From: Rhodothermales bacterium
Lineage (GTDB): Bacteria > Bacteroidota > Rhodothermia > Rhodothermales > Bin80
Assembly: GCA_958296045.1 (NCBI GenBank)
Contig: CATQHT010000001.1
Coordinates: 558,001-622,000, forward strand
Reading direction: 5' to 3'
DNA: 64,000 nt
Position 1 is the stretch's first letter, and every line of letters starts with the position of its first letter. The notes beneath the pieces are model-generated. The model made no database searches. It was not told the DNA's origin and saw only the letters and a program-made list of their open reading frames with translations. The translations under genes and the position numbers were made by a program. Positions 1,603 to 64,000 of this stretch are shown one piece after another.

Positions 1603-2042
1603 TCAGCCGAAGCTGGAGCGGGCGAGCCTTAAGTGGCCTTCGCGCGAGCGGCGTGCCAGGCTCGTCGTTTCGCTTCTTTTTTTTCTGACCACTTTGCCTA
1701 GTCGGTGAGTGTTTGCCGCCAGCACCGCCAGCCCTACCGACCGATCGAAGCCCTCCTTTCCGTGGGTACGTATGAGCCCCATCCCCCGCTGTTGCAGGTT
1801 GTTGATGGCGGACTCGATCGCAGGATGCTGTAGACGCGCCTTGACAAAATCGGGCTGAGACTCCCGCTCGCGTTGTTTCGCATTGCGGTAACCAGGCTTG
1901 GGCATGACGTTCAAGTCCAGCAGCTCATCCAAGGCGTCGCGATTCTTCGCAGAGTAGAAGCCCTTATCCATGCTGCAGGACGTAAGCGACGGATAGCGCT
2001 TCTTTGCTTCGCCTATGAAACCCACGATCATGGCCTTATCGC
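1603..2042 (-). pseudogene. ISNCY transposase copy 1, C-terminal third
   Basis: Continuation of the transposase beyond the inserted unit: AMIVGFIGEAKKRYPSL, CSMDKGFYSAKNRDALDEL, AIESAINNLQQRGMG, and a C-terminus that runs further than in the copy at 12.3 kb because of a small length difference in a T-run near 1680. The SMDKGFYS segment is likely to carry one of the acidic DDE residues, with the acidic residues nearer the C-terminus completing the site; that is inferred from family layout. Not translatable with its N-terminal part. Confidence 0.75.
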
Positions 2043-2126
2043 ACGTTGCCGAATGCGAAGCAGCCGGAATCGTCGTTAGCCCACGCCAGCGGATCATCCT
2101 TACCGAATGCCGGTCGGCGACAGGGT

Positions 2127-2408
2127 ATGGCGGATTCTGGCTCGGATGACTGGGTAGAGGTCACGCATCCTTTCCATCCATGGTTTGGTCGCCGATTTCC
2201 GCGCCAATACTGCCTGACAATTGGCAATGTGCGGCTGGTACGCTGCATTGTGGATGAAAACACGCTACGGTGTTTGCCCAGGGCGTGGACAGACTTGCGC
2301 GTGGTAGACGACTTCGAGCGGGTTTCAGCGGGCCGTGCACTCTTTCGGGCAGACGATCTTGTGGCACTGAGGTCGCTGGTGGACACGCTTTTGGAGGAAC
2401 ACCATTAA
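2127..2408 (+). CDS. Small DUF5372-like protein of the serine-recombinase unit
   Basis: Start chosen at ATG 2127, preceded by CAGGG; 93 residues. An upstream in-frame ATG at 2046 would add poorly conserved sequence reaching the element boundary. The core EVTHPFHPWFGRRF followed by RAWTDL and a C-terminal helix rich in leucine resembles a family of about 90-residue proteins (DUF5372 as I recall it) found beside recombinase genes. Function unknown; the fixed association suggests an accessory recombination or regulatory role. The name is from memory and should be checked by a profile search. Confidence 0.6.
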   Translation: MADSGSDDWVEVTHPFHPWFGRRFPRQYCLTIGNVRLVRCIVDENTLRCLPRAWTDLRVVDDFERVSAGRALFRADDLVALRSLVDTLLEEHH

Positions 2409-2543
2409 TGCAACGCATAATCGCGTATTGCGCAACTTCGTGGAAAATGGGCTGTTTTTTGGCCGTAGTAGGTCGCTATTGTGTGCCGAGGTTGCATTCC
2501 GAAGCGACGTACATATTCCGTGGTGATCATTACTCCTGACGGC

Positions 2544-3257
2544 ATGTCCAGTGACAAGAGCGAGCGCCTGCAGAGGTCTATCAACCCGAACCCAGAGGCG
2601 GTCTCCGATCCCCTATTTGAGTGCAGCCCCTTCTTCGATCCGCGAGACCTCCTGCAAGTCCGCTACGAGATGATACGCTCTCATACGAAAGACACGACTC
2701 TTGCAGCGGTCGCGGCCCGGTACGGCATGTCTGTACCTACCTGTGTGCGCGTAAAGCGCGCTTTCCGGGCAGGCGGTCTGCAAGCCCTGATTCCGGAGCG
2801 GCGCGGGCCCCGGGGACCCCGCAAGATTACGCCCGAAATCTTAGAGTTTGCCGAGAATTGCCGCGCCTTACCTGACGCCGTCAGCGTCCGTAAACTCGCC
2901 GAGATGATACGCGAACGCTTCGATATAACCATCCACTACAGCAGCCTTCACCGAGCGCTGTTAAAAAAAACTCCTAAACGCGCTGATGACCCATTGCGTG
3001 ATAGCCAGGACACCCATCGCTATGACCGTTGGCGCCAGCGGTGGCTCAGTGGCCAGCACAGCCAGGCCATCTCCATCCTGTGCCACCATGGCCTGGCCCT
3101 CGCGCTGGTGCTTACTGCACCGATGCCCAGCACCTGTGCTCCGAGCGAGCCTGCACCCATCGCCCCATCTGCTCCACTGCTTAGGCAGGCCTCGTCCATG
3201 AGCTGCCATCTCATTCACTCATTGCGTATCGCCTATGCCCGGACCCTCATCCCATAA
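2544..3257 (+). CDS. Helix-turn-helix protein of the serine-recombinase unit
   Basis: Start ATG 2544 gives 237 residues. Residues about 35-130 form a helix-turn-helix/winged-helix block (LAAVAARYGMSVPTCVRVKR, then GLQALIPERRGPRGPRK and SVRKLAEMIRERFDI), much like the N-terminal DNA-binding region of IS630/ISXO-type transposases but with no catalytic domain attached. The part after about residue 150, beyond a run of eight A's at 2965-2972, has odd composition and may be out of frame relative to an ancestral protein. The 3' end overlaps the recombinase start by 23 bases, pointing to one transcript. Probable DNA-binding partner of the recombinase. Confidence 0.6.
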   Translation: MSSDKSERLQRSINPNPEAVSDPLFECSPFFDPRDLLQVRYEMIRSHTKDTTLAAVAARYGMSVPTCVRVKRAFRAGGLQALIPERRGPRGPRKITPEILEFAENCRALPDAVSVRKLAEMIRERFDITIHYSSLHRALLKKTPKRADDPLRDSQDTHRYDRWRQRWLSGQHSQAISILCHHGLALALVLTAPMPSTCAPSEPAPIAPSAPLLRQASSMSCHLIHSLRIAYARTLIP

Positions 3258-5295
3258 AATCACTGCCGACCATCTCAACCGCCGGGCCTGCCTGTACATC
3301 CGCCAGTCCTCGCTGCATCAGGTGCAGACCCACAAGGAGAGCCAGCACCGTCAGTACGACCTGCGCAGGCGTGCCATTGCCTTGGGCTGGCCCGAAGATC
3401 GGATTGACGTGATTGACGAGGACCAGGGCAAGTCTGGCGCCACCAGTACCCAACGTATGGGATTCCAGGATCTGCGTGCGCGTGTCGGTGCTGGAGAAGT
3501 GGGCATGGTGCTCAGTCTCGAAGTATCACGCCTGTGCCGGGACAATGCGGAATGGCATCAATTGCTTCGGATCGCAGCCGTGGCAAAGACCCTCATCCTG
3601 GACGAGCATGGCATTTACGACGTTGGCGACATCAACGACTGGATGCTGCTCGGGCTCAAGGGGCAGCTCTCGGAGTACGAACTGCGCGGCATACGCGCAC
3701 GCATGGTTGGGGGACAGCGCTCGAAGGCACTGCGTGGAGAGCTCAAGCTTCACTTACCGATCGGGCTGGCATACATCGAAGCAGACAGGGTTGTCTTGGA
3801 TCCAGATCAATCCATCACCGAAGCGATTGCCTTGGTATTCACGACCTTCCGGCGACTGGGGTCCGCCATGCAGGTCACCAAGTGGTTTTGGCGACAAGCG
3901 ATTCGCTTACCTTCGCGGCCCCACACGGGTAACAGTGAAGTGCACTGGGCAGTGCCCAATTACAGCCAGATTCAGCGCATCCTCCATAATCCCCGCTATG
4001 CCGGCTGCTACGCCTACGGCCGTACGGGCATGCGCACACGCCCAGATGGGTCCGTGCAGCGTACCTCCCTGCCCATAGACCAGTGGCTGGTGTGTATTCG
4101 GGATGCCCACAAGGGTTACATTGACTGGGAGGAATATTTACACAACCAAGAGACCATGCGCACGAACGCGGCGAGCTACCTTGGCGGGGCCGAGCGTACG
4201 CCGCCGCCACGCAAGGGGGTGGCCTTGCTTCAATCCCGCATCATTTGCGGCCTGTGTGGTCAGAGGATGCACGTGAACTACAACTATAATAACCGCGAAG
4301 ATGTTAGGTGGTACTATCTGTGCAAGGAGAACATCGTTCGCCGCGGCACGCGTACCTGCCAAAGCATGCGTGGAGACGTGCTGGATGCGGCGGTAGGTCG
4401 CTTTGTTGTCGCCGCGGTCAACCGGGAGAACCTGACGCTTTCGCTGACGGTGCGCGAGCAGCTGCGCAGCGACTTTGAGGCGGCAGATCGCCAGAGAATC
4501 AACCATATCGAAAGCTTACGATATCAGGTGGATCTGGCCCGCCGCAGGTACATGGAAGTGGACCCGTCGAATCGCCTCGTGTCTGCGACGCTGGAGGCCG
4601 AATGGGAAGCCCGTCTGAAGGCCCATGGTGAAGCCGTCAGAGAACAAGAGCGGTACAAGAAAGCCCAGCATAGCACACCCGATGCCGCGTTGGACCAGCG
4701 CATCCTTGCGTTGGCCAGCGACTTTGGCACCGTGTGGGAAGCGGCTCATACCACCAACAAGGACCGGAAGCGTCTCTTAGGATTGCTGATCGAGGACATC
4801 ACCCTGACCCGAAGGGGATACCAGGTGAATGTCGGATTGCGATTGCGTGGCGGACGAACCCACGAGCTGCCTCCAGTAGCGTTGCCCCTGCCTCGCGCTA
4901 CGGTCATCCGTCGCGATGCCTCCAAGCAGGCCCTGGCCGAACTGGAGGAGCTGCTTGAGGCAGGCTACGATGATTCCCAAGCCGCCGAGGAGCTGAACCT
5001 GCGCGAGCACCGCGACAGCTTGGGAGGACGGTTCAACGCAAAACGCATTCGCACCATTCGGGTGCGTCACAAGATGCCTGGAGGCATCGAGCGGCAACGC
5101 GAAAAGATGCGTGCGCAGGGCTACAAAACCGCCAAAGAACTCGCCGCCGAACTCGCAATAGATGTTTCCACGGTAGGATGGCGAGCCCGGGAGGGCAGAG
5201 GCATTGACGTGCACCAGATCCCTGCCAGCAAGCGTACCTTCGCAATGTATAGAATCAGCCCCAAAATACGAACCACAGCTACCGCCTCCTCATGA
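3235..5295 (+). CDS. Large serine recombinase with zinc ribbon
   Basis: A 686-residue recombinase. The resolvase catalytic domain begins with ACLYIRQSS (nucleophile Ser about residue 25) and continues with DEDQGKSGAT, VLSLEVSRLCRD and LKGQLSEYEL. A recombinase domain follows (PNYSQIQRILHNPRYAG). A zinc-ribbon CGLCGQRM lies near residue 338 with the partner cysteines in YYLCKEN and TRTCQSM. A coiled-coil stretch lies around residues 430-490, and a C-terminal extension contains two probable helix-turn-helix segments (DDSQAAEELNLRE; TAKELAAELAIDVSTVGWRA). All key residues are present, so it appears intact, unlike its host ISNCY transposase. It would cut and rejoin DNA through a phosphoserine intermediate. 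Confidence 0.9.
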   Translation: MPGPSSHKITADHLNRRACLYIRQSSLHQVQTHKESQHRQYDLRRRAIALGWPEDRIDVIDEDQGKSGATSTQRMGFQDLRARVGAGEVGMVLSLEVSRLCRDNAEWHQLLRIAAVAKTLILDEHGIYDVGDINDWMLLGLKGQLSEYELRGIRARMVGGQRSKALRGELKLHLPIGLAYIEADRVVLDPDQSITEAIALVFTTFRRLGSAMQVTKWFWRQAIRLPSRPHTGNSEVHWAVPNYSQIQRILHNPRYAGCYAYGRTGMRTRPDGSVQRTSLPIDQWLVCIRDAHKGYIDWEEYLHNQETMRTNAASYLGGAERTPPPRKGVALLQSRIICGLCGQRMHVNYNYNNREDVRWYYLCKENIVRRGTRTCQSMRGDVLDAAVGRFVVAAVNRENLTLSLTVREQLRSDFEAADRQRINHIESLRYQVDLARRRYMEVDPSNRLVSATLEAEWEARLKAHGEAVREQERYKKAQHSTPDAALDQRILALASDFGTVWEAAHTTNKDRKRLLGLLIEDITLTRRGYQVNVGLRLRGGRTHELPPVALPLPRATVIRRDASKQALAELEELLEAGYDDSQAAEELNLREHRDSLGGRFNAKRIRTIRVRHKMPGGIERQREKMRAQGYKTAKELAAELAIDVSTVGWRAREGRGIDVHQIPASKRTFAMYRISPKIRTTATASS

Positions 5296-5333
5296 ACCCT
5301 ACAGGTCGCATACAGACTCGAACGACTTATCGC

Positions 5334-6332
5334 CCCCGTCGTGCTGCATGTGGTGCATCAAGATGAATTGATGCTGATCCTCCAGCACGCAGACCGGAAT
5401 GCCGAGCTCAGCTAACACGCCGGCCTTTCCTTTCCTGACCCACTGCGTATGCGGCTCGAAAACAGAAAATATCTTCTCTTCGTGCTCAATATCTTCCTTT
5501 TTCAGCAAGCGACGGTCCACTTGGTCTACCAGTTTTTCGCTGGCTTCCAGGTACCACGCCATCTTGTCGGTCACTTCCTCCAGCGTCTTCACCGTCCCTA
5601 ACGCCTTTGTGATGATCTGGCGCGCAACCGCAAGGAACTGACGTACGCGGTCGAGGAAGCCATTCTTATGGGCCCTACGGCAACGGCGATAGGCTGTCGT
5701 TAATGTCTTCACCCACCAGCGGGCCTTGCGCCAGCCCTTCATTCCTATCGACCTGCAGTGTCCGTACAACTCGTTAACCAGACTGCGCAATGCATCACAG
5801 AGAAGTCGTACGTCCATGGGCCACTCCACGTTGGTACGCGCCACAGCCGAATCCGCGCGGCAGCGCAAAGCATCTTTAGCGCCATGCTTGAGCTCCTTTT
5901 GACTCTTTGCTACCACCACCTGGTTGATCTCGTCGAGCGCCTCCTTCGTCAGCAGGGACACATTATCGACCTGTGTTGCACAGAAAACCGCTTCTTACTG
6001 ACGTCGCTGATCATGAGCTCCTGACGCAGCGCCCTATGGTGGTTGGCCAGATCCTTCAGACGATCATAGTCGCAGTTGAGTGCGAACTTCACTACACCTA
6101 ACACAAAGATCTGCCAGAAATCCATGCCAGGTCGACCCTTCGTCCAATCTACGCTGGGAAGAATCCTGCGCGAAAGGACCTCCAGCACCTGTTCGCGCAC
6201 ATCCTTATCCGCATACAGGGACTGCAGGCCGCGCAACACCGCGGGGGTATCGTCCCTTGACTTGGGGTTCAGCTCAATCTGCTCAATCGGCGTGACCCAC
6301 AGATCCGACTAGGACTTAAGGACCGCTCTCAT
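5334..6332 (-). pseudogene. ISNCY transposase copy 1, N-terminal two thirds (broken)
   Basis: The sister-copy start codon corresponds to 6332, but the eighth codon here is TAG. Reading resumes through GRPGMDFWQIFVLGVVKFAL to LMISDVSKKRF, where one base is missing near 5970 and the frame shifts. The remainder (VSLLTKEALDEINQVVVAK to HHMQHDGGD) is open in another frame until the serine-recombinase unit begins at 5333. Three independent lesions (nonsense, frameshift, insertion) make this copy non-functional. Confidence 0.8.
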
Positions 6333-7035: not shown

Positions 7036-7815
7036 TCACGGCTGTCTGGCGTCAGTTACGCTTGTCTTCTCTGGAAGGTTCTGCCATTTTGGCAGACGCT
7101 GTCTCATGGACTCTCCCTTCAGCGCGATGTGGTGTGCATTGTGAATGAGGCGATCCAGGATAGCATCAGCGAGTGTTGGGTCTTCCATGCCTTCGTGCCA
7201 CACACTCACAGGCATCTGGCTGGTAACGACGATGGATCCCTTCTGATACCGATCATCGATTAGCTCAAGCAGATCCCGCTGGTGCAGCGCACTGATTCGT
7301 GACAACCCCCAGTCATCGAGAACCAGTAGGTGGAAGCGCGTCAACTGCTTCAGCAGTTTCAGGAAGCGTCCGTCCCCGTGCGCGAGTTGCAGATCTTCCA
7401 GAAGACGATGCAGTCGGTGGTAGCGTACGGTGAACCCCTCCATGCAGGCTTTATGCGCCAGCGCGCACGCCACGAAGCTCTTGCCGACACCGGTGGGTCC
7501 GGTAATGATCACATTGTGATGTTTGCCCACCCAGTCGCAGGTGGAAAGCGAGGCCATCAGGCGCCGATCCAGATTGCGACCGCGACGATAGTCCAGATCG
7601 GCCATGGAGGCCTCCTGGCGTAACCGGGCGCGGCGTAGGCGCGACCGCAGGCGATTGTTGTATCGCACGATCTCCTCGTGGTCAACCAATAGGCCCAGGC
7701 GGTCCATGAACGGGAGCTGCTCCATTTCCGGTTGGGTAAGCTGATCACGCAGCGCGCGCGCCATGCCATGCAGACGCATCTGCTCGAGCTTGTCAAGGGT
7801 AGGGTGTAGGAGCAT
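7036..7815 (-). CDS. istB: IstB transposition helper ATPase (IS21-A1)
   Basis: A 259-residue AAA+ ATPase. Walker A GPTGVGKS near residue 109, Walker B LLVLDDWGL near 170, sensor-like VVTSQMPVSVWHE, and the family C-terminus LADAILDRLIHNAHHI. IstB assists the IstA transposase in target capture and strand transfer. The ATG (7815-7813) overlaps the istA stop by one base. Intact, so it could act in trans for other IS21-A copies even though its own istA carries a stop codon. Confidence 0.92.
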   Translation of the reverse strand: MLLHPTLDKLEQMRLHGMARALRDQLTQPEMEQLPFMDRLGLLVDHEEIVRYNNRLRSRLRRARLRQEASMADLDYRRGRNLDRRLMASLSTCDWVGKHHNVIITGPTGVGKSFVACALAHKACMEGFTVRYHRLHRLLEDLQLAHGDGRFLKLLKQLTRFHLLVLDDWGLSRISALHQRDLLELIDDRYQKGSIVVTSQMPVSVWHEGMEDPTLADAILDRLIHNAHHIALKGESMRQRLPKWQNLPEKTSVTDARQP

Positions 7816-9377
7816 CAGTCCTTCGAGGTTTGGTGAGGAGAATCCGATTTGGTGTCGTAATAGCTTGGGCCCCGGATGTTGTCATGGTCTATGGGAGGCG
7901 GAGACTCCGAGTCCAGCGGATGCTTGTCGAGTCCATTCTTCAGGATGGACGCGATGCTCCTGTACGAGCGGGTGCCGATAGCGATTGCCCGCGTACACGC
8001 GTTTTCCATGCGGCTCTTACCGTAGATGCGAGCCAAGCGGAGCAGGCCCATGAGCGTGCGGTAGCGAATCAACGGGTGCCGTTCAGCATCGATGATCTGC
8101 TGCACGACCTTGTGTGTGTCCGGCCCGATACGTTCTGCCTCGGTTACGAAGCGGCTCATATCCTTCAGTTAGCGCTGGGAGTCCGGCATGTGTTCATCCT
8201 TGGTGGTGACCCCTTTCTGGTGGCTACGCGGGTGCGTCGCCACCCGTTTGTCGTCAAAAAATACCTCAAGGGTGGTATCTGTAAGGCGAACCTGTACCGA
8301 ACGACCTACATATCGATAAGGAACGCTATAACGGTGCCAGCGCACCTCGATGTGCGCATCTCTGTGCACCTTGGCTTTGCGCCACTCCGCGTGCTCGTAC
8401 GGCTCCGCCGGCAAGGGCTTCATCGCTGATCGCTCCCACGTGTCAATCCAGCTCTTACGACTGCCTTCCAGCTTCTGAAAAGGCCGCTCGTTAAGCTCCT
8501 TCAGATGGACACGAATGTGCCGGTTCACGTGCGCTAGACCGATGAAACGCTTATCGCTTAACGGAGCCAGAATGCGCCTCTCTGCATGCAACACGGCTTG
8601 CTCGACCTTGGCCTTGTCCCTGGGTTTCCCGGGACGCGTAGGCACAACCACGGTCTTGTAGTGCATCGCAAGGTCCTGATACGACGGATTGATCTCCAGA
8701 TCGTACCGGTGGGACTTGCGCACGCCACTCTTCAAATTGTCACAGACCACATAGGAAGGCACCGCCCCGAAATACTCGAACATGCGACGATGCGAGCCCA
8801 GCCAGTCCCCAAGACGCTGCGTCCACGTGGCCTCAACGTAGAGATAATTGGAGAATCCCAGCACGCCAACAAAGATCTCCACCCGACGCCGCTTACGCGT
8901 AAGCTGGTCTATCGCCTCCAGGCGCATGCCTGCATAGTCCACGAAGGCCGAATGACCCGCAGGATGATCCATCGGAACCGTCACCTGGCCGAATTCCTTC
9001 TTCCAGGCAGAGTAAAGAGCGCAGAACTTGCTGTAGCCGTAACCATCGCTGTGGTCCCGCCTGTACCGCTCCCACATCAGGTGTCGCGTGAACCCCTTGA
9101 GCTGAATATTACGATGCACCTCGGACCAGTCCGGTAACGGACGCGCCTCTCTGGCACTCTCCAGCGGACCATAAAGCAAAGCCTTCAACTTGGCCTTCGT
9201 CATACCCTCGGGCAAAGGCCAACGCACACCCGCTGCCTTAGCACGACGCAAATAACCAAGTACCGGGCTGTGCGATATTCCCAGCGCACGACCGATACCA
9301 CGTACGCTCAGATCAGACTCCGCAGACAACCGCAGAACGTCCCACAAGACACGCATCGCAACCCTCTTTTTTGGCAT
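7815..9377 (-). pseudogene. istA: IstA transposase (IS21-A1) with one in-frame nonsense codon
   Basis: Start taken at 9377 (MPKKRVAMRVLWDV), preceded by AGGGG at a good distance; a longer frame starting at 9503 would run through the terminal repeats. The N-terminal helix-turn-helix (VRGIGRALGISHSPVLGYL) is followed by the DDE core with FVDYAGMRLE and YVVCDNLKSG. A TAA at about 8169-8171 after HMPDSQR interrupts the frame. The same frame reopens at once (MSRFVTEAERIGPD...) to the natural end at 7815. Copy 2 has a glutamine codon at this position, so the lesion is a single C-to-T-type change removing about the last 117 residues. Confidence 0.85.
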
Positions 9378-9880
9378 AAGTACCCCTTGTCTGGTAAGTG
9401 AAGAGGGTACGATACCACCTGCGCTCGACCTGCCGCCATCACCCGCGACAGGCAACAATAACCCGTTACTAACTCTGCCAGACTGCCAATTTGGCAGTCC
9501 CATATGCCGCCCTCCTACACCCCGCCGCCACCGGGCGGCACGCGGCGGATCAGGTGGTCGATTACCCGTGGAATCACTGGTCGATTACCCGTGGAACCAC
9601 TGGTCGATTTGGAGCGGAATACGCAATCAGCCGGAACGGCGGTAGCTTCCTTGCCTTGGGTAGCGACCCGGAGGAGGCGGCAAAGGTACGGCGTTACGAC
9701 AGAATTTCCCTCGGAGCTATTTGCCTGCTTATTGTCGCCTTCGGGCTTCAAATAGCCGCGATTTGGCTATAACGCAGCGGAACTTGCGCAATGGCATCGT
9801 TGTACAAACGGGTAACGCAACATTGCTAAGCCAAACCGATGTGGAGACGCAGAAATGGCGGGGACCGCTTGAAGATGACT

Positions 9881-11974: not shown

Positions 11975-13602
11975 CCAGACCTGTGGTCGTGGAATCGGGG
12001 GCGGATTTCGCCCGCGCACGAGGCTTTTGTGTGACAAAAGCATATCTTGCGGGGTGATTAACTAGTGCTTGTCAGAAAATAGGGCATTTTGGGCGTCTGC
12101 CTGGCTGGAGCAAGGTCGGGGGCACGCTGGGGGCCCGATAGGGACGCTGGTCTGAGCGATGGGAAGGGTAACAGAAGCGCTGCGCGGCCATTTCTGACCC
12201 TCAACCGGGCTTCGTTAGCTCCTGGCGGCCCAGAGTGGATACAGCTTACCCGTCGCGGGCTTGTCGGAAACAGAAAAAGAAGGGCTCAGCCGAAGCTGGA
12301 GCGGGCGAGCCTTAAGTGGCCCTCGCGCGAGCGGCGTGTCAGGCTTGTCGCTTTGCTTCTTTTTTCCTGACCACTTTGCCTAGTCGGTGAATGTTTGCCG
12401 ACAGCACCGCCAGCCCTACCGACCGATCGAAGCCCTCCTTTCCGTGGGTACGTATGAGCCCCATCCCCCGCTGTTGCAGGTTGTTGATGGCGGACTCGAT
12501 CGCAGGATGCTGTAGACGCGCCTTGACAAAATCGGGGTGAGACTCCCGCTCGCGTTGTTTCGCATTGCGGTAACTAGGCTTGGGCATGACGTTCAAGTCC
12601 AGCAGCTCATCGGCGTCGCGATTCTTCGCAGAGTAGAAGCCCTTATCCATGCTGCAGGACGTAAGCGACGGATAGCGCTTCTTTGCTTCGCCTATGAAAC
12701 CCACGATCATGGCCATATCGCCCCCATCGTGCTGCACATGGTGCATCAAGATGAATTGATGCTGATCCTCCAGCACGCAGACCGGAATGCCGAGCTCAGC
12801 TAACACGCCGGCCTTTCCTTTCCTGACCCACTGCGTATGCGGCTCGAAAATAGAAAATATCTTCTCTTCGTGCTCAATATCTTCCTTTTTCAGCAAGCGA
12901 CGGTCCACTTGGTCTACCAGTTTTTCGCTGGCTTCCAGGTACCACGCCATCTTGTCGGTCACTTCCTTCAGCGTCTTCACCGTCCCTAACGCCTTTGTGA
13001 TGATCTGGCGCGCAACCGCAAGGAACTGACGTACGCGGTCGAGGAAGCCATTCTTATGGGCCCTACGGCAACGGCGATAGGCTGTCGTTAATGTCTTCAC
13101 CCACCAGCGGGCCTTGCGCCAGCCCTTCATTCCTATCGCCTTGCAGTGTCCGTACAACTCGTTAACCAGATTGCGCAATGCATCACAGAGAAGTCGTACG
13201 TCCGTGGGCCACTCCACGTTGGTACGCGCTACAGCCGAATCCGCGCGGCAGCGCAAGGCATCTGTGGCGCCATGCTTGAGCTCCTTATGACCCTTTGCTA
13301 CCACCACTTGGTTGATCTCGTCGAGCGCCTCCTTCGTCAGCAGGGACACATTGTCGACCAGAGTATGCACCGAAAACCGCTTCTTACTGACGTCGCTGAT
13401 CATGTGCATAATCCGATCCAAACTGGACGGGTAATCCGAGGTAAGCTGGACACTTGTGGAGGGCTGCTGGCGCCTGTCTCGGGGCTGAGTAAAGGCCTTT
13501 ACAGGTGTGTGGTTTTGGCTGGTGGCAGTGGAGCAGTGGCGGTATCGGAGGGGATCCGTCAGCCGCTTAATATCAGGGACTCAATCACCAACCGAGTTTC
13601 TG

Positions 13603-15133
13603 ATGTCAAACAAGCGAGTGTCTATGCGGGCGATTAGGGACGTGCTTCGGCTGCATTTCCGGGAGGGGTATAGCAATCGCAAGATTGCGAAGTGTCTGTC
13701 CGTTTCAGCCAGTACGGTGAGCGCGTATTTGGAGCGTGCAAAGCATGCGGGTCTGTCCTGGCCTCTGCCGGAGGATTTGGATGATCATGGTTTGGAGTCA
13801 CGCCTGTATGCGGAGGCTTCTGTGCGCCACAAGTCTGAGCCAAGGTGGGAGGAGGTGCATCGGAAGATGTCGCGGTCGAGCATGACGCTGAAGTTGGTTT
13901 GGCAGTCCTACCGTGCAACGTATCCAGACGGCTACGGCTACAGTCGTTTCTGTGACCTATATCGTGCTTGGCGCCACCGCACGCAGGTGACCATGCATCT
14001 GCACCACAAGGCGGGTGAGAAGCTCGGGACTTTGCGGGCATGACGATAAAGGTGCGTGATCAGCGGAAGCCAGCTCACGTCTTTGTGGCCACGATGGGTT
14101 TTTCCAGTTACACGTATGCGGAGGCCACCGGAGATGAGACGCTGAGGAGCTTTATTGGCGCACATCGTCGGGCCCTTGAGTTTTTCGGTACGGTACCGGC
14201 GGCGGTGGTGCCTGACAACTTGAAGGCGGCAGTCAAGAAGGCGCACCGTTACGATCTGGAAATCAATCCTACCTACCAGGAGATGTGCGAGCATTACGAT
14301 CTGGTAGCGCTGCCGGCTCGCGCGAGAAAACCAAGGGATAAGGCCAAAGTCGAATCTGCGGTCAAAGTAGTGGAGCAGTGGATTCTGGCCGCCTTGGGTA
14401 CTGTCCCTTACCTCACGCTGGATATGCTCAATGAGCGGATTGCGAAGGGGTTGGTTACCCTGAATGACACTCCTTTTCAGAAGCGCGAAGGGAGCCGTCG
14501 CAGTCAGTTTGAGGCGGTGGATTTGCCCGCGATGCGCCCTTTACCCTCGAAGCCCTTTGAGTATAGGGAGTGGAAAGTGGCCACGGTGAGCTTTGATTAT
14601 CACGTAGCGGTGAACAAGCGGTTCTACAGCGTCCCGTATCGGCATGTCCGGCGCAAGGTGAATGTATGCGTGGGGGATGCTACCGTGGAGATATACCTTA
14701 GCAACCAACGTATAGCATCCCACAGGTTGTGCCCCAAGGTCTACGGATGGAGCACACATCCAGAGCATATACCTTCGAATCATCAGGAGTACGCCCAGCA
14801 GCATCGCCTGCTTGAGCGTGCCGCGCAGATCGGTCCGAACACACGGAGAAGGTAGCGTTGACCATCATAGAGCGCCGCAGGCATCCTGAGCAGGGCTTTC
14901 GCTCGGTCAGGGGGCTCCTGGACCTTAAGCGCGCCTATCCAGGCGAGCACATCGAGGCGGCCTGTAAGTGGGCATTAGTGCACCAGATCTTCCGCACAAG
15001 CAGCATCGCTAATGTTCTCAAACGTGGCATTGAGCGGCTTACCCTGTACCAGGCAGAGGAGGACCCGCCCATCATGCACGACAACATCCGCGGTGCCCAG
15101 TACTACGCCGACCCCCCTGACAACAACGCTTAG
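13603..15133 (+). pseudogene. istA: IstA transposase (IS21-B), two frameshifts
   Basis: Start ATG 13603 (MSNKRVSMRAIRDVLRL). The first frame covers the helix-turn-helix (NRKIAKCLSVSASTVSAYL) to HHKAGEKLG and stops at 14041-14043. The second starts in the expected DFAGMTIKV near 14030, so several bases are missing around 14024, right at the first catalytic Asp. The second frame (YTYAEATGDE, VVPDNLKAAVKKAHRYDLEI, RDKAKVESAV) stops at 14855. A further shift near 14845 leads to the C-terminus (TIIERRRHPEQGFRSVRG...) ending at 15133. Assembly error is possible, but two separate shifts favour decay. Confidence 0.8.
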
Positions 15134-15137
15134 TTCC

Positions 15138-15902
15138 ATGTTGACACACCCAACGATAGAGCAGCTCGAGAAGCTTCGCTTCTATGGCATGGCCGACGCT
15201 TTGCGCGATCAGCTAAACCATCCTGGCATTGAGCAGGTGGCATTCATGGACCGCCTCGGTGAGATGGTGGATCGCGAAGCCAACCGGCGTGAAAGCATTC
15301 GATTGAAGTTACGGCTTCGCCGCGCTCGGCTACGGCAACAGGCGTGTATGCAGGACATAGACTATCGCATGCATCGCGGACTGGACCGTCGCCTCATGCT
15401 GTATTTGGCCGGATGCGACTGGATACGCCAAAAGCAGAACGTGATCATCACCGGCCCCACCGGCGTGGGTAAGAGTTATATTGCCTGTGCGCTGGCCCAC
15501 ACCGCCTGCCTGAAAGGCTTTAAAGTGCGCTATTTCCGGTTGCACCGAATGCTCGAAGACGTTGCACTGGCGCGAGCAGAGGGCCGGCTCCTGAAGCTGC
15601 TGCGTACGTTGTCGCGGCTTAGCGTGCTGGTTGTTGATGATTGGGGGCTGAAAAAACTCACCAGTGCACAGCAAGATGATCTGCTGGAAATCTTGGATGA
15701 CCGACACCAGGTCAGCTCCACCATTGCTACCAGCCAGCTCCCGGTGGAACGCTGGCATCAGGCCATGGAAAATCCTACGCTCGCCGATGCTATCCTGGAT
15801 CGCCTCGTCCACAACGCGCACCGCATCCAGCTGACCGGCGACTCGATGCGTAAGCAAATGGCTAACGTGCACATGCCGGAAAACCCGGAAGACTCATCTT
15901 GA
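15138..15902 (+). CDS. istB: IstB transposition helper ATPase (IS21-B)
   Basis: The 254-residue protein begins at ATG 15138 (MLTHPTIEQLEKLRFYGMAD), four bases after the istA stop. Walker A GPTGVGKS near residue 107, Walker B VLVVDDWGL, and C-terminal NPTLADAILDRLVHNAHRI define IstB. It is intact although its istA partner is frameshifted. An extended upstream frame from 15012 overlaps istA and is not credible as coding. Confidence 0.92.
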   Translation: MLTHPTIEQLEKLRFYGMADALRDQLNHPGIEQVAFMDRLGEMVDREANRRESIRLKLRLRRARLRQQACMQDIDYRMHRGLDRRLMLYLAGCDWIRQKQNVIITGPTGVGKSYIACALAHTACLKGFKVRYFRLHRMLEDVALARAEGRLLKLLRTLSRLSVLVVDDWGLKKLTSAQQDDLLEILDDRHQVSSTIATSQLPVERWHQAMENPTLADAILDRLVHNAHRIQLTGDSMRKQMANVHMPENPEDSS

Positions 15903-16720
15903 TTCTAACCAGAAACTCCCAGCAACCACAGGGCATGCCAGCTAACGTCACCATCAAAACACGGCTGAACAACCTCCAGCGCGGGTGTCCAGTTTGGATC
16001 GGATTCACTGTCCAGCTTACCTCGGATTACCCGTCCAGTTTGGATCGGATTGGGTGCGCGAATTCGTCGGATTACGCAATCATGAGCATCTGACGCAGCG
16101 CCCTATGGTGGTTGGCCAGATCCTCCAGACGATCATAGTCGCAGTTGAGTGCGAACTTCACTACACCTAACACAAGGATCTGCCAGAAATCCATGCCAGG
16201 GCGACCCTTCGTCCGATCTACGTCGGGAAGAATCCTGCGCGAAAGGACCTCCAGCACCTGTTCGCGCACATCCTTATCCGCATACAGGGACTGCAGACCG
16301 CGCAACACCGCGGGGGTATCGTCCCTTGACTTGGGGTTCAGCTCAATCTGCTCAATCGGCGTGACCCACGGATCCGACTGGGACTTAAGGACCGCTCTCA
16401 TGTGTATGAATCGGGCGAATGTGGGCGGGTTCAGAGCTCAAAATCGTGCTTTACGCTGAGAAAAGCCAGATCTGAGCCAACATTCGCGGATCTAAGTTCT
16501 TGGCAGGAATGGGCCTACCGTGGGTTCACATTGGGTAAGACCGACCATTAGCCAGCAAAAACGCCTATTTCTGGCGTATCTCTCCCCCTGCTGACCCCCA
16601 TGCAGCCATCTACGCAAGGCAGGCCCTGTTTTTCGGACAAGCACTTGCTAAGCCATAGCGCTGCCTGGTGGCGCGTGGCGCGCCGATCCGTCGGGCCGCT
16701 TGCCTGTAGGTACGGCCCCG

Positions 16721-53225: not shown

Positions 53226-54210
53226 TCGGGCGCGCAACCGCAAGGAAGTGTGTTCAGCGACAGTTAGAAGTGGCGTAAGCGGTCGAGGAAGGCATTCTTA
53301 TCGGCCCTACTGCACCGGCGATAGGCGGTCGTTAATGTCTTCACCCACCAGTGGGCCTTATGCCCACCCTGCATTTATATCGCCTTGCCGTGTCTGTACA
53401 ACTCGTTAACCAGACTGCACATCGCACCTAAGGGAAGCCGTACGTCCGTGGGCCACTCCACGTGAGTACGTGCCACGGCCGAATCCACGTGGCAGCACTA
53501 GGCATTCTTGATGCTATGCTTGAACCCCTTATGACCCTGTGCTACCACCACTTGATTGATCTCGTCGAGCGCCTCCTTCGTCAGCAGGGACACATTGTCC
53601 ACCAGTGTTTGCACAGAAAACAGCTTCTTACTGATATCGTTGATCATGAGCATCTGACGTAGCGCCGTATGGTTGTTGGCCAGATCCTCCAGACGATCAT
53701 AGTCGCAGTTGAGTGCGAACTTCACCGCACCTAACACTAAGATTTGCCAGACATCCAAGCCAGTGCGACCCTTAGTCTGATCTTCGATGGGAAGAATCCT
53801 GCGCGAAAGGACCCCCAGCACCTCGTCGCGCACATCCTTATCTGCAAACAGGGATTGCAGGCCGCGCAGCACTACGGGGATATCGTCCCTTGACTTGGGG
53901 TTCAGCTCAATCTTCTCAATCGGCGTGAGCCACGGATCCGACTGGGACTTAAGGACTGCTCTCATGTGTATGGATGGGCGAATATGGGAAGGTTCAGAGC
54001 TCAAGTATCGCGCTTATCGCTGAGAAAAGCCAGATCTGAACCAACATACGCGGTTTCAAGCTCTCGGCATGCATGGGCCCACTCTGGGTTCAGCATGGGT
54101 TCGACGGACCATAAGCCAGCAACAGCGCCTATTTCTGGCGTATCTTGCTCCCTGCTGACTACCGCGTAGCCGTTTATGCCAGGCAGGCCCTGTTTTTCTG
54201 ACAAGCACTA
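53226..54210 (-). mobile_element. ISNCY remnant with right end
   Basis: ISNCY sequence from the middle of the transposase to the right terminus (...CTGACAAGCACTAGC near 54210), diverged from the two larger copies. It contains the N-terminal transposase frame (start 53965, MRAVLKSQSDPWLTPIEKIE, LANNHTALRQMLMINDISKK, stop 53498). Beyond it the reading frame is lost through many changes. Its left part was replaced by the IS21-B end, so an IS21-B insertion probably split this copy too. Confidence 0.75.
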
Positions 54211-54248
54211 GCTTTGCGCCTTTATGTTGGCTCCGCTATTGACCGCGG

Positions 54249-62563: not shown

Positions 62564-64000
62564 ATGCCAAACAAGAGGGTTGTTATGCGTGTTTTGTGGG
62601 ACGTTCTGCGGTTGTCTGCGGAGTCTGATTTGAGCGTACGTGGTATCGGTCGTGCGCTGGGAATATCGCACAGCACGGTACTTGGTTACTTGCGTCGTGC
62701 TAAGGCAGCGGGTGTGCATTGGCCTTTGCCCGAGGGTATGCCGGAGGCCAAGTTGAAGGCATTGCTTTATGGTCCGCCGGAGGTTGCCAAGGAGACGCGT
62801 CCGTTGCCGGACTGGTCCGAGGTGGAGCGTAAGATGCAGGTCAAGGGGTTCACGCGGCGCCTGATGTGGGAGCGGTACAGGCGGGACCACAGCGATGGTT
62901 ACGGCTACAGCAATTTCTGCGCTCTTTACTCTGCCTGGAAGAAGGAATTTGGCCAGGTGACGGTTCCGATGGATCATCCTGCGGGTCATTCGGCCTTCGT
63001 GGACTATGCAGGCATGCGCCTGGAGGCGATAGACCAGCTTACGCGTAAGCGGCGTCGGGTGGAGATCTTTGTTGGTGTGCTGGGATTCTCCAATTATCTC
63101 TACGTTGAGGCGACGTGGACGCAGCGTCTTGGGGACTGGCTGGGCTCGCATCGTCGCATGTTCGAGGCTTTCGGGGCGGTGCCTTCCTATGTGGTCTGTG
63201 ACAATTTGAAGAGTGGCGTGCGCAAGGCCCACCGATACGATCCAGAGATCAATCCGTCGTATCAGGACCTTGCGATGCACTACAAGACCGTGGTTGTGCC
63301 TACGCGTCCCGGGAAGCCCAGGGACAAGGCCAAGGTCGAGCAAGCCGTGTTGCATGCAGAGAGGCGCATTCTGGCTCCGTTAAGCGATAAGCGTTTCATC
63401 GGTCTAGCGCACGTGAACCGGCACATTCGTGTCCATCTGAAGGAGCTTAACGAGCGGCCTTTTCAGAAGCTGGAAGGCAGTCGTAAGAGCTGGATTGACA
63501 CGTGGGAGCGATCAGCGATGAAGCCCTTGCCGGCGGAGCCGTACGAGCACGCGGAGTGGCGCAAAGCCAAGGTGCACAGAGATGCGCACATCGAGGTGCG
63601 CTGGCACCGTTATAGCGTTCCTTATCGATAGGTAGGTCGTTCGGTACAGGTTCGCCTTACAGATACCACCCTGGAGGTATTTTTTGACGACAAACGGGTG
63701 GCGACGCACCCGCGTAGCCACCAGAAAGGGGTCACCACCAAGGATGAACACATGCCGGACGCCCAACGCCAAATGAACGATATGAGCCGCTTCGTAACCG
63801 AGGCAGAACGCATCGGGCCGGACACACACAATATCGTGCGGCAGATCATCGATGCTGAGCGGCACCCGCTGATTCGTTACCGCACGCTCATGGGCCTGCT
63901 CCGCTTGGCTCGCATCTACGGTAAGAGCCGCATGGAAAACGCGTGTACGCGGGCAATCGCTATCGGCACCCGCTCGTACAGGAGCATCGCGTCCATCCTG
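62564..64000 (+). pseudogene. istA: IstA transposase (IS21-A2) with a nonsense codon, 3' end outside window
   Basis: Start ATG 62564 (MPNKRVVMRVLWDV) after GAGAGGGG. The protein follows copy 1 closely: FVDYAGMRLEAIDQ, YVVCDNLKSGVRKAHRYD, PRDKAKVEQAVLHAE. A TAG at 63629-63631 replaces the tyrosine codon that follows SVPYR in copy 1. The frame continues open after it (VGRSVQVRLTDTTLEVFF, HMPDAQRQMNDMSRF) to the window end. The nonsense site differs from that in copy 1. Confidence 0.85.

Follow-up and report, generated by a model that had tools for sequence, protein, structure and literature searches.

A unit of about 3.3 kb at positions 2036 to 5328 (forward strand) of the window, by which we mean the whole 64,000-nucleotide stretch of DNA analyzed here, is most probably (at about 85%, in our estimate) an autonomous, cargo-free transposable element that is moved by a large serine recombinase (LSR) and inserts at fixed motifs in the genes of other mobile elements. 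Judged from sequence comparisons, its insertion is precise around a TT dinucleotide, it is multicopy, its gene triad recurs across phyla, and the motif positions that it and its relatives occupy are fixed and differ by LSR clade. The main new point looks like the target: these elements appear to reside nearly exclusively in the conserved motifs of other mobile elements, with one fixed position per lineage.

Organization and boundaries of the element

The unit carries three genes, all on the forward strand. The first (2127 to 2408) codes for a DUF5372 protein (PF17342) of 93 amino acids from the ATG at 2127, the second (orf2; 2544 to 3257) for a helix-turn-helix (HTH) protein with HTH_32 and HTH_28 matches, and the third (3235 to 5295) for an LSR of 686 amino acids with the Resolvase, Recombinase, and Zn_ribbon_recom domains. 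Neither the list of open reading frames nor Pfam revealed any gene for phage structural proteins or for conjugation in the 3.3 kb. The interrupted gene, on the reverse strand, is an ISNCY_1 transposase gene, with its upstream part at 5329 to 5961 (positions 104-323 of NF033593, degenerate further upstream) and its C-terminal part at 1603 to 2035 (positions 325-443). The repeat positions, the Pfam matches, and the alignment to a sister ISNCY copy confirm the proposal, first made in a sequence-only reading, of a 3.3-kb unit of three genes inside this transposase gene.

That reading had taken as its edge reference the uninterrupted sister ISNCY copy at 12084 to 13404, which does align to both flanks but is not the best empty site, as its site at 12715-12716 has AT instead of TT, with A at the first core base. 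Nine other empty ISNCY copies in the source genome read GGCCTTATCGCC, the sister being the exception (A for T). Together with an alignment of seven element copies from five target sites, all in the source genome, these nine sites place the edges, giving a length of 3,291 bp plus the core. The left core TT lies at 2036 to 2037, with TTATCG CACGTTGCCGAATG as the left end, and the right core TT lies at 5327 to 5328, with CAGACTCGAACGACTT as the right end. Across the seven copies, the consensus left end is TT(A/G)TCG(T/C)ACGTTGCCGAATG and the right end CAGACTC(C/G)AANGACTT. The edges proposed earlier (2043-5333) are one of several equivalent registers, and it is the seven copies that fix the core. 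Other, diverged or partial ISNCY copies, kin of the interrupted one, lie at 16079-16649 and 53267-54213 of the window.

A two-base-pair core, empty sites, and hybrid sites

The same 8 bases, CTTATCGC, do stand on both sides of the unit on the forward strand (2035 to 2042 and 5326 to 5333), as had been reported, but they are not a target duplication, nor do they form a constant core. When their constancy was checked, both junctions of every one of the seven copies had TT alone in common, with the adjoining bases varying, and we therefore consider the core to be 2 bp and the 8-bp repeat to be TT plus a chance likeness of the left end of the element to the target. Both 8-bp readings, as a core and as a target duplication, were accordingly rejected. 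The identical dinucleotide at both junctions, found singly in the empty site, is as expected of an LSR, and a TT core is also seen in the Sinorhizobium and Burkholderia types. A DDE-type IS would show terminal inverted repeats and a target duplication whose fixed length exceeds 2 bp; here the two ends differ (TTATCGTACGTTGCC versus CAACGACTT) and the repeat is only 2 bp.

The source genome, of 4.78 Mb, belongs to the family of the Rhodothermaceae MAG MPNB01 and contains five intact copies of the LSR in addition to broken ones. Three near-identical copies share one ISNCY position but differ in their surroundings, which would fit an element whose LSR no longer transposes and that spreads passively with its host IS. 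Indeed, these three copies and several S-type sites, likewise near-identical, may be IS-borne duplicates rather than separate insertions. As an account of the whole family, passive spread is nevertheless quite improbable, for the same genome has further copies in an IS21, in a group II intron, and at two more sites (L015 and L018), and those on Sinorhizobium, Microvirga, and Burkholderia plasmids occupy differing target families. The group II intron copy (L016; C3:333000-352500) is a broken one that is itself interrupted by additional introns and by a transposase gene, resulting in several layers of nesting.

Two element-free loci in the source genome are hybrids of two different sequences. 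In one (L050; C3:2548406-2548507 and downstream), the left half of an ISNCY is joined through TT to the latter half of domain V from a group II intron (identified by Rfam), which is the right flank of the element copy L016. In the other (L046; C1:539050), a foreign left flank, for which we found no identity, is joined at TT to an ISNCY right flank. Such sites are what recombination of attL with attR between two copies would leave. In Sinorhizobium, two element copies (L063 and L110) have their two flanks from different targets.

The recombinase and its relatives

The LSR has an N-terminal resolvase domain (PF00239) followed by Recombinase (PF07508) and zinc-ribbon (PF13408) domains, all above cutoff, and has no DUF4368 match at an E value of 0.1. 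Its best curated NCBIfam match is XisF of the fdxN element (E = 6.5e-22), which at 78 bits against a cutoff of 375 is well under threshold, and whose role, the developmental excision of one large element, is unlike that proposed here. No match to PDB chains was obtained by phmmer at an E value of 0.001. With tblastn, the LSR matched 509 plasmid records, none at 60% identity or more; the relatives, on hundreds of plasmids, are mostly annotated as "recombinase family protein."

The DUF5372-HTH-LSR trio is annotated adjacently in Sinorhizobium fredii NGR234, Aromatoleum aromaticum, Rhodococcus opacus, and S. medicae, and is also present in Burkholderia, Caballeronia, and Rhizobium. The predicted co-occurrence is thus borne out across the Rhizobiales, Burkholderiales, Aromatoleum, and Rhodococcus. 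DNA searches gave lengths of 3.2 to 3.4 kb for the three-gene type across genomes and delimited a unit of 3.32 kb in Sinorhizobium; in CCBAU 25509, the ISNCY gene is intact at the site of the NGR234 insertion. The genes therefore do travel together, the edges elsewhere do not reach far beyond them, and the earlier suggestion of a minimal LSR-driven transposable unit holds: the unit is multicopy, free of phage and conjugation genes, and has edges reproduced in other genomes.

Characterized LSRs mostly serve phages and large integrative elements, and the unit could on that ground be the degenerate remnant of such an element that retained its recombinase end. We regard this as very improbable and have rejected it, since the compact size and gene set recur in many genomes, in multiple copies with intact genes; no relative was found in viral contigs at the search sensitivity used; and identity to phage proteins is about 25% or less.

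Conserved motifs of mobile-element genes as targets

To reopen the interrupted reading frames, the left flank, core, and right flank were joined in silico. Both flanks derive from mobile elements, cut in conserved motifs, in 38 of 41 junction pairs, a count of distinct flank pairs that does not imply independence of events and comes from a sample leaning to IS-rich plasmids. Insertion within an IS, as first noted for the window, is thus real but not peculiar to that case, and appears to be the general rule. Pfam matches on the joined or flanking proteins include rve, rve_3, IstB_IS21, Resolvase, TnpB_IS66, RVT_1, and DDE_Tnp_IS66; the NGR234 ISNCY_2-like identity and the IS701-like identity come from annotation and inspection instead.

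The three-gene type, with its TT core, cuts IS21 IstA at PRD^KAKVE, PQD^KAIAEK, AKT^KGKVERP, or ART^KGKDERG (^ marking the junction), IS3 at PQS^NGMAEAF, ISNCY_2 at QA^KGRVER, and ISNCY_1 at GGD^KAM, and one copy lies within domain V of a group II intron. The IstA, IS3, and ISNCY junctions fall around the DDE glutamate; for IstA and IS3, this follows from what is established for these families and is supported by the end position of the rve profile match. Within this type, another subclade, whose core lies within TGTA, cuts IS66 TnpB at CLF^YKILERG. The two-gene 2.6-kb type, with a TA core, cuts IS3 at ^YN..RPH (e.g., ^YNEERPHGAIG), the 2.5-kb type lies within other LSR genes at DGI^YDPR, and the 2.58-kb type cuts the Walker A motif of IstB at GP^SGTGKT. 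In the last of these the base beside the junction varies, and hence no single dinucleotide core can be assigned to it.

Several individual loci deserve mention. On a Mesorhizobium sp. AR07 plasmid (NZ_CP080528), four copies (L172, L173, L174, and L177) are nested in the LSR genes of other members of their own family at DGIYDP. A related LSR subfamily has inserted precisely at the Walker A motif of istB in IS21 on Sinorhizobium medicae ml49 plasmids (L116-L120) and at two other loci (L130 and L134). A further LSR clade (L022, L023, L128, and L133) cuts group II intron reverse transcriptase (RT) genes at motif A (D..SFFD).

The flanks of 16 more loci fit this pattern and extend the targets to the group II intron RT, IS66 TnpC, and IS701. 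By flank inspection, the target is IstA in Aromatoleum and Caballeronia; the IstB Walker A motif in Azospirillum and Bradyrhizobium; RT motif A in Mycetohabitans, Mesorhizobium, Syntrophaceae, and Desulfobulbaceae; IS66 TnpC in Acidobacteria and Burkholderia; IS66 TnpB in Rhizobium tumorigenes; IstA and IS66 TnpB in Rhodothermaceae relatives; IS3 in Acidiphilium; and an IS701-like gene, recognized by eye, in Streptomyces. The flanks of L021, L024, L026, L029, L124, L129, L175, and L178 did not yield the exact motif.

Recombinase clade and target choice

In a FastTree phylogeny of 35 LSRs, a single, well-supported clade unites the three-gene elements of Rhodothermaceae and Proteobacteria, and the targeters of the IS3 YN motif, IstB, RT, and TnpC each form clades of their own. 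For the loci sampled in this tree, LSR clade is predictive of the target motif.

It might be countered that the LSR inserts rather freely and that the only insertions to persist are those in DNA that the host can spare, IS copies among it. On the sampled replicons, genes of mobile elements are both frequent and dispensable, insertions that disrupt useful genes would be lost to selection, and two of the five sites in the source genome (L015 and L018), whose joined flanks gave no Pfam match, are exceptions to the mobile-element rule. Purging leaves unexplained, however, why each clade has its own motif and why one codon position is reused by divergent LSRs: the IstA D^K position is occupied in Rhodothermaceae (L014), Sinorhizobium, Burkholderia, and Aromatoleum by LSRs that are about 43% identical and come from different phyla, which speaks against simple survivorship. 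Nor does it account for IstA sites being predicted without training on IstA. A 50-bp weight matrix built from 16 distinct three-gene sites and scored on 127,900 window positions ranked the unoccupied IstA sites at 63326, 8614, and 14340 first, second, and third. When every IstA site was removed from the matrix, they still came sixth, 15th, and eighth, respectively, and the empty ISNCY sister came fifth; the rank of the sister is not independent, as the ISNCY_1 target is in the training set, whereas the IstA ranks are. Survivorship as the sole cause is consequently improbable, and we favor target recognition by the LSR. The second-ranked site (8613 to 8614, good to a base) is a predicted unoccupied target within IS21 istA at PRD^KAKVE. 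The IS21 copies with such high-scoring unoccupied sites lie at 7036-9503, at 13507-15902, and around 63326 of the window.

The partner proteins

DUF5372-like ORFs stand beside nearly every LSR inspected, but the HTH gene is restricted to one LSR clade, and related elements of 2.5 to 2.6 kb consist of a DUF5372-like ORF and an LSR only. Of the two small fixed partners originally described, only the first is therefore near-constant, and a fixed triad was rejected. The PF17342 match has an E value of 2e-14; a structure prediction from four sequences reached a pLDDT of 54, a profile search against the PDB gave chance-level matches only, and we found no mention of DUF5372 in the open-access literature searched. 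The product of orf2 matches, besides HTH_32 and HTH_28, the HTH region of transpos_IS630, and its HTH is related to the HTH part of IS630 and IS481 transposases.

In the window copy, orf2 is a fused frame of 237 amino acids in which the HTH domain continues into a C-terminal domain across an A8 run at their boundary (2963 to 2970, forward strand), whereas most copies have A9 and are split there. In Rhodothermaceae, Rhizobiales, and Aromatoleum alike, the A9 run sits at one and the same place, where the HTH domain ends; a stop follows 1 to 6 codons beyond it, and the +1 frame is open for at least 84 codons in canonical copies. This conservation suggests programmed slippage at the run. The variation could instead reflect homopolymer error or decay: lengths of A7 (one Sinorhizobium copy), A8, and A9 among otherwise near-identical copies are a classic assembly error, to which any run length read from a single copy may be due, and shortened runs occur in broken copies. 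We hold this to be the less likely account, as three distant lineages have the run at an identical codon, in each case near a stop and with one shared alternative frame open, and as a Rhodococcus member has the C-terminal part of orf2 as a separate overlapping ORF.

Proposed mechanism and implications

Taking these findings together, we propose that cleavage by the LSR at the TT core frees a circle by recombination of attL with attR, thereby restoring or recombining the targets. The circle would join the right end to the left, with CAGACTCGAACGACTT-ATCGCACGTTGCC as the expected junction, and would reinsert at attB-like DNA overlapping conserved transposase codons, the insertion presumably inactivating the host IS copy. 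We propose that the targets overlap conserved codons because such DNA is common to many elements; being multicopy, widespread, dispensable, and mobile, these targets would provide both safe sites and carriage by the host IS. The DUF5372 protein probably works alongside the LSR and could be a factor for directionality or targeting. The HTH protein might bind the ends or have a regulatory role, with short and long forms arising by slippage at the A8/A9 run.

On a wider scale, it is likely that minimal LSR transposons, comprising a DUF5372-like gene and an LSR with or without the HTH gene, make up a superfamily that spans phyla and whose members are dedicated hyperparasites of other mobile elements. 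Within it, each LSR clade would have evolved recognition of the DNA for one conserved motif, such as the DDE glutamate, Walker A, RT motif A, the serine-recombinase motif, or others. If true, this would be a systematic bacterial case of transposons living inside transposons by way of the DNA of conserved machinery motifs. It would then explain naturally how a wide host range is possible without harm to the host, and would act as a natural check on IS activity. The family would also supply compact LSRs whose att sites are related but whose target motifs differ and can be predicted, useful for studying the evolution of LSR specificity and for genome-engineering tools. The role of these LSR genes appears to be unremarked in the open literature searched; we found no paper on LSRs that target transposase motifs in the open-access literature, and priority is uncertain.

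Comparison with known systems

Among LSR-driven elements, Tn4451 (TnpX) and Tn5397 (TndX) move via a circular intermediate with a 2-bp core. The window element resembles them in its LSR-type recombinase and 2-bp core, the circle here being only postulated; they differ in being larger, in carrying cargo or conjugation genes, and in their choice of target, and we know of no DUF5372/HTH set in either. The multitargeting clade of TndX-like LSRs (Durrant et al. 2022, PMC10083194) likewise uses many sites around a TT core and has a transposon-like lifestyle. DUF4368 is found in 63% of that clade and thus is not universal, but the window LSR has no match to it and has a DUF5372 partner. We found no report of transposase-motif targeting in the main text of PMC10083194, which mentions competence genes as enriched among the targets of site-specific LSRs.

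IS607 is, according to PMC6188088 and PMC4058570, an element with a TnpA that has an N-terminal DNA-binding domain, and with TnpB as partner. Like it, the window element is small and couples a serine recombinase to a second gene, but its recombinase is a 686-amino-acid LSR with an N-terminal resolvase domain, it has no TnpB, and it lacks the pairing of a small serine recombinase with TnpB that defines IS607 membership.

Other elements are also specialized for other mobile elements, namely, the Tn5053-type res-site hunters and the group II intron RmInt1, which resides in ISRm2011-2. They share with the present elements the use of other mobile DNA as target; they do so with different enzymes and for one kind of site each, whereas the LSR family appears to have diversified over many conserved protein motifs.
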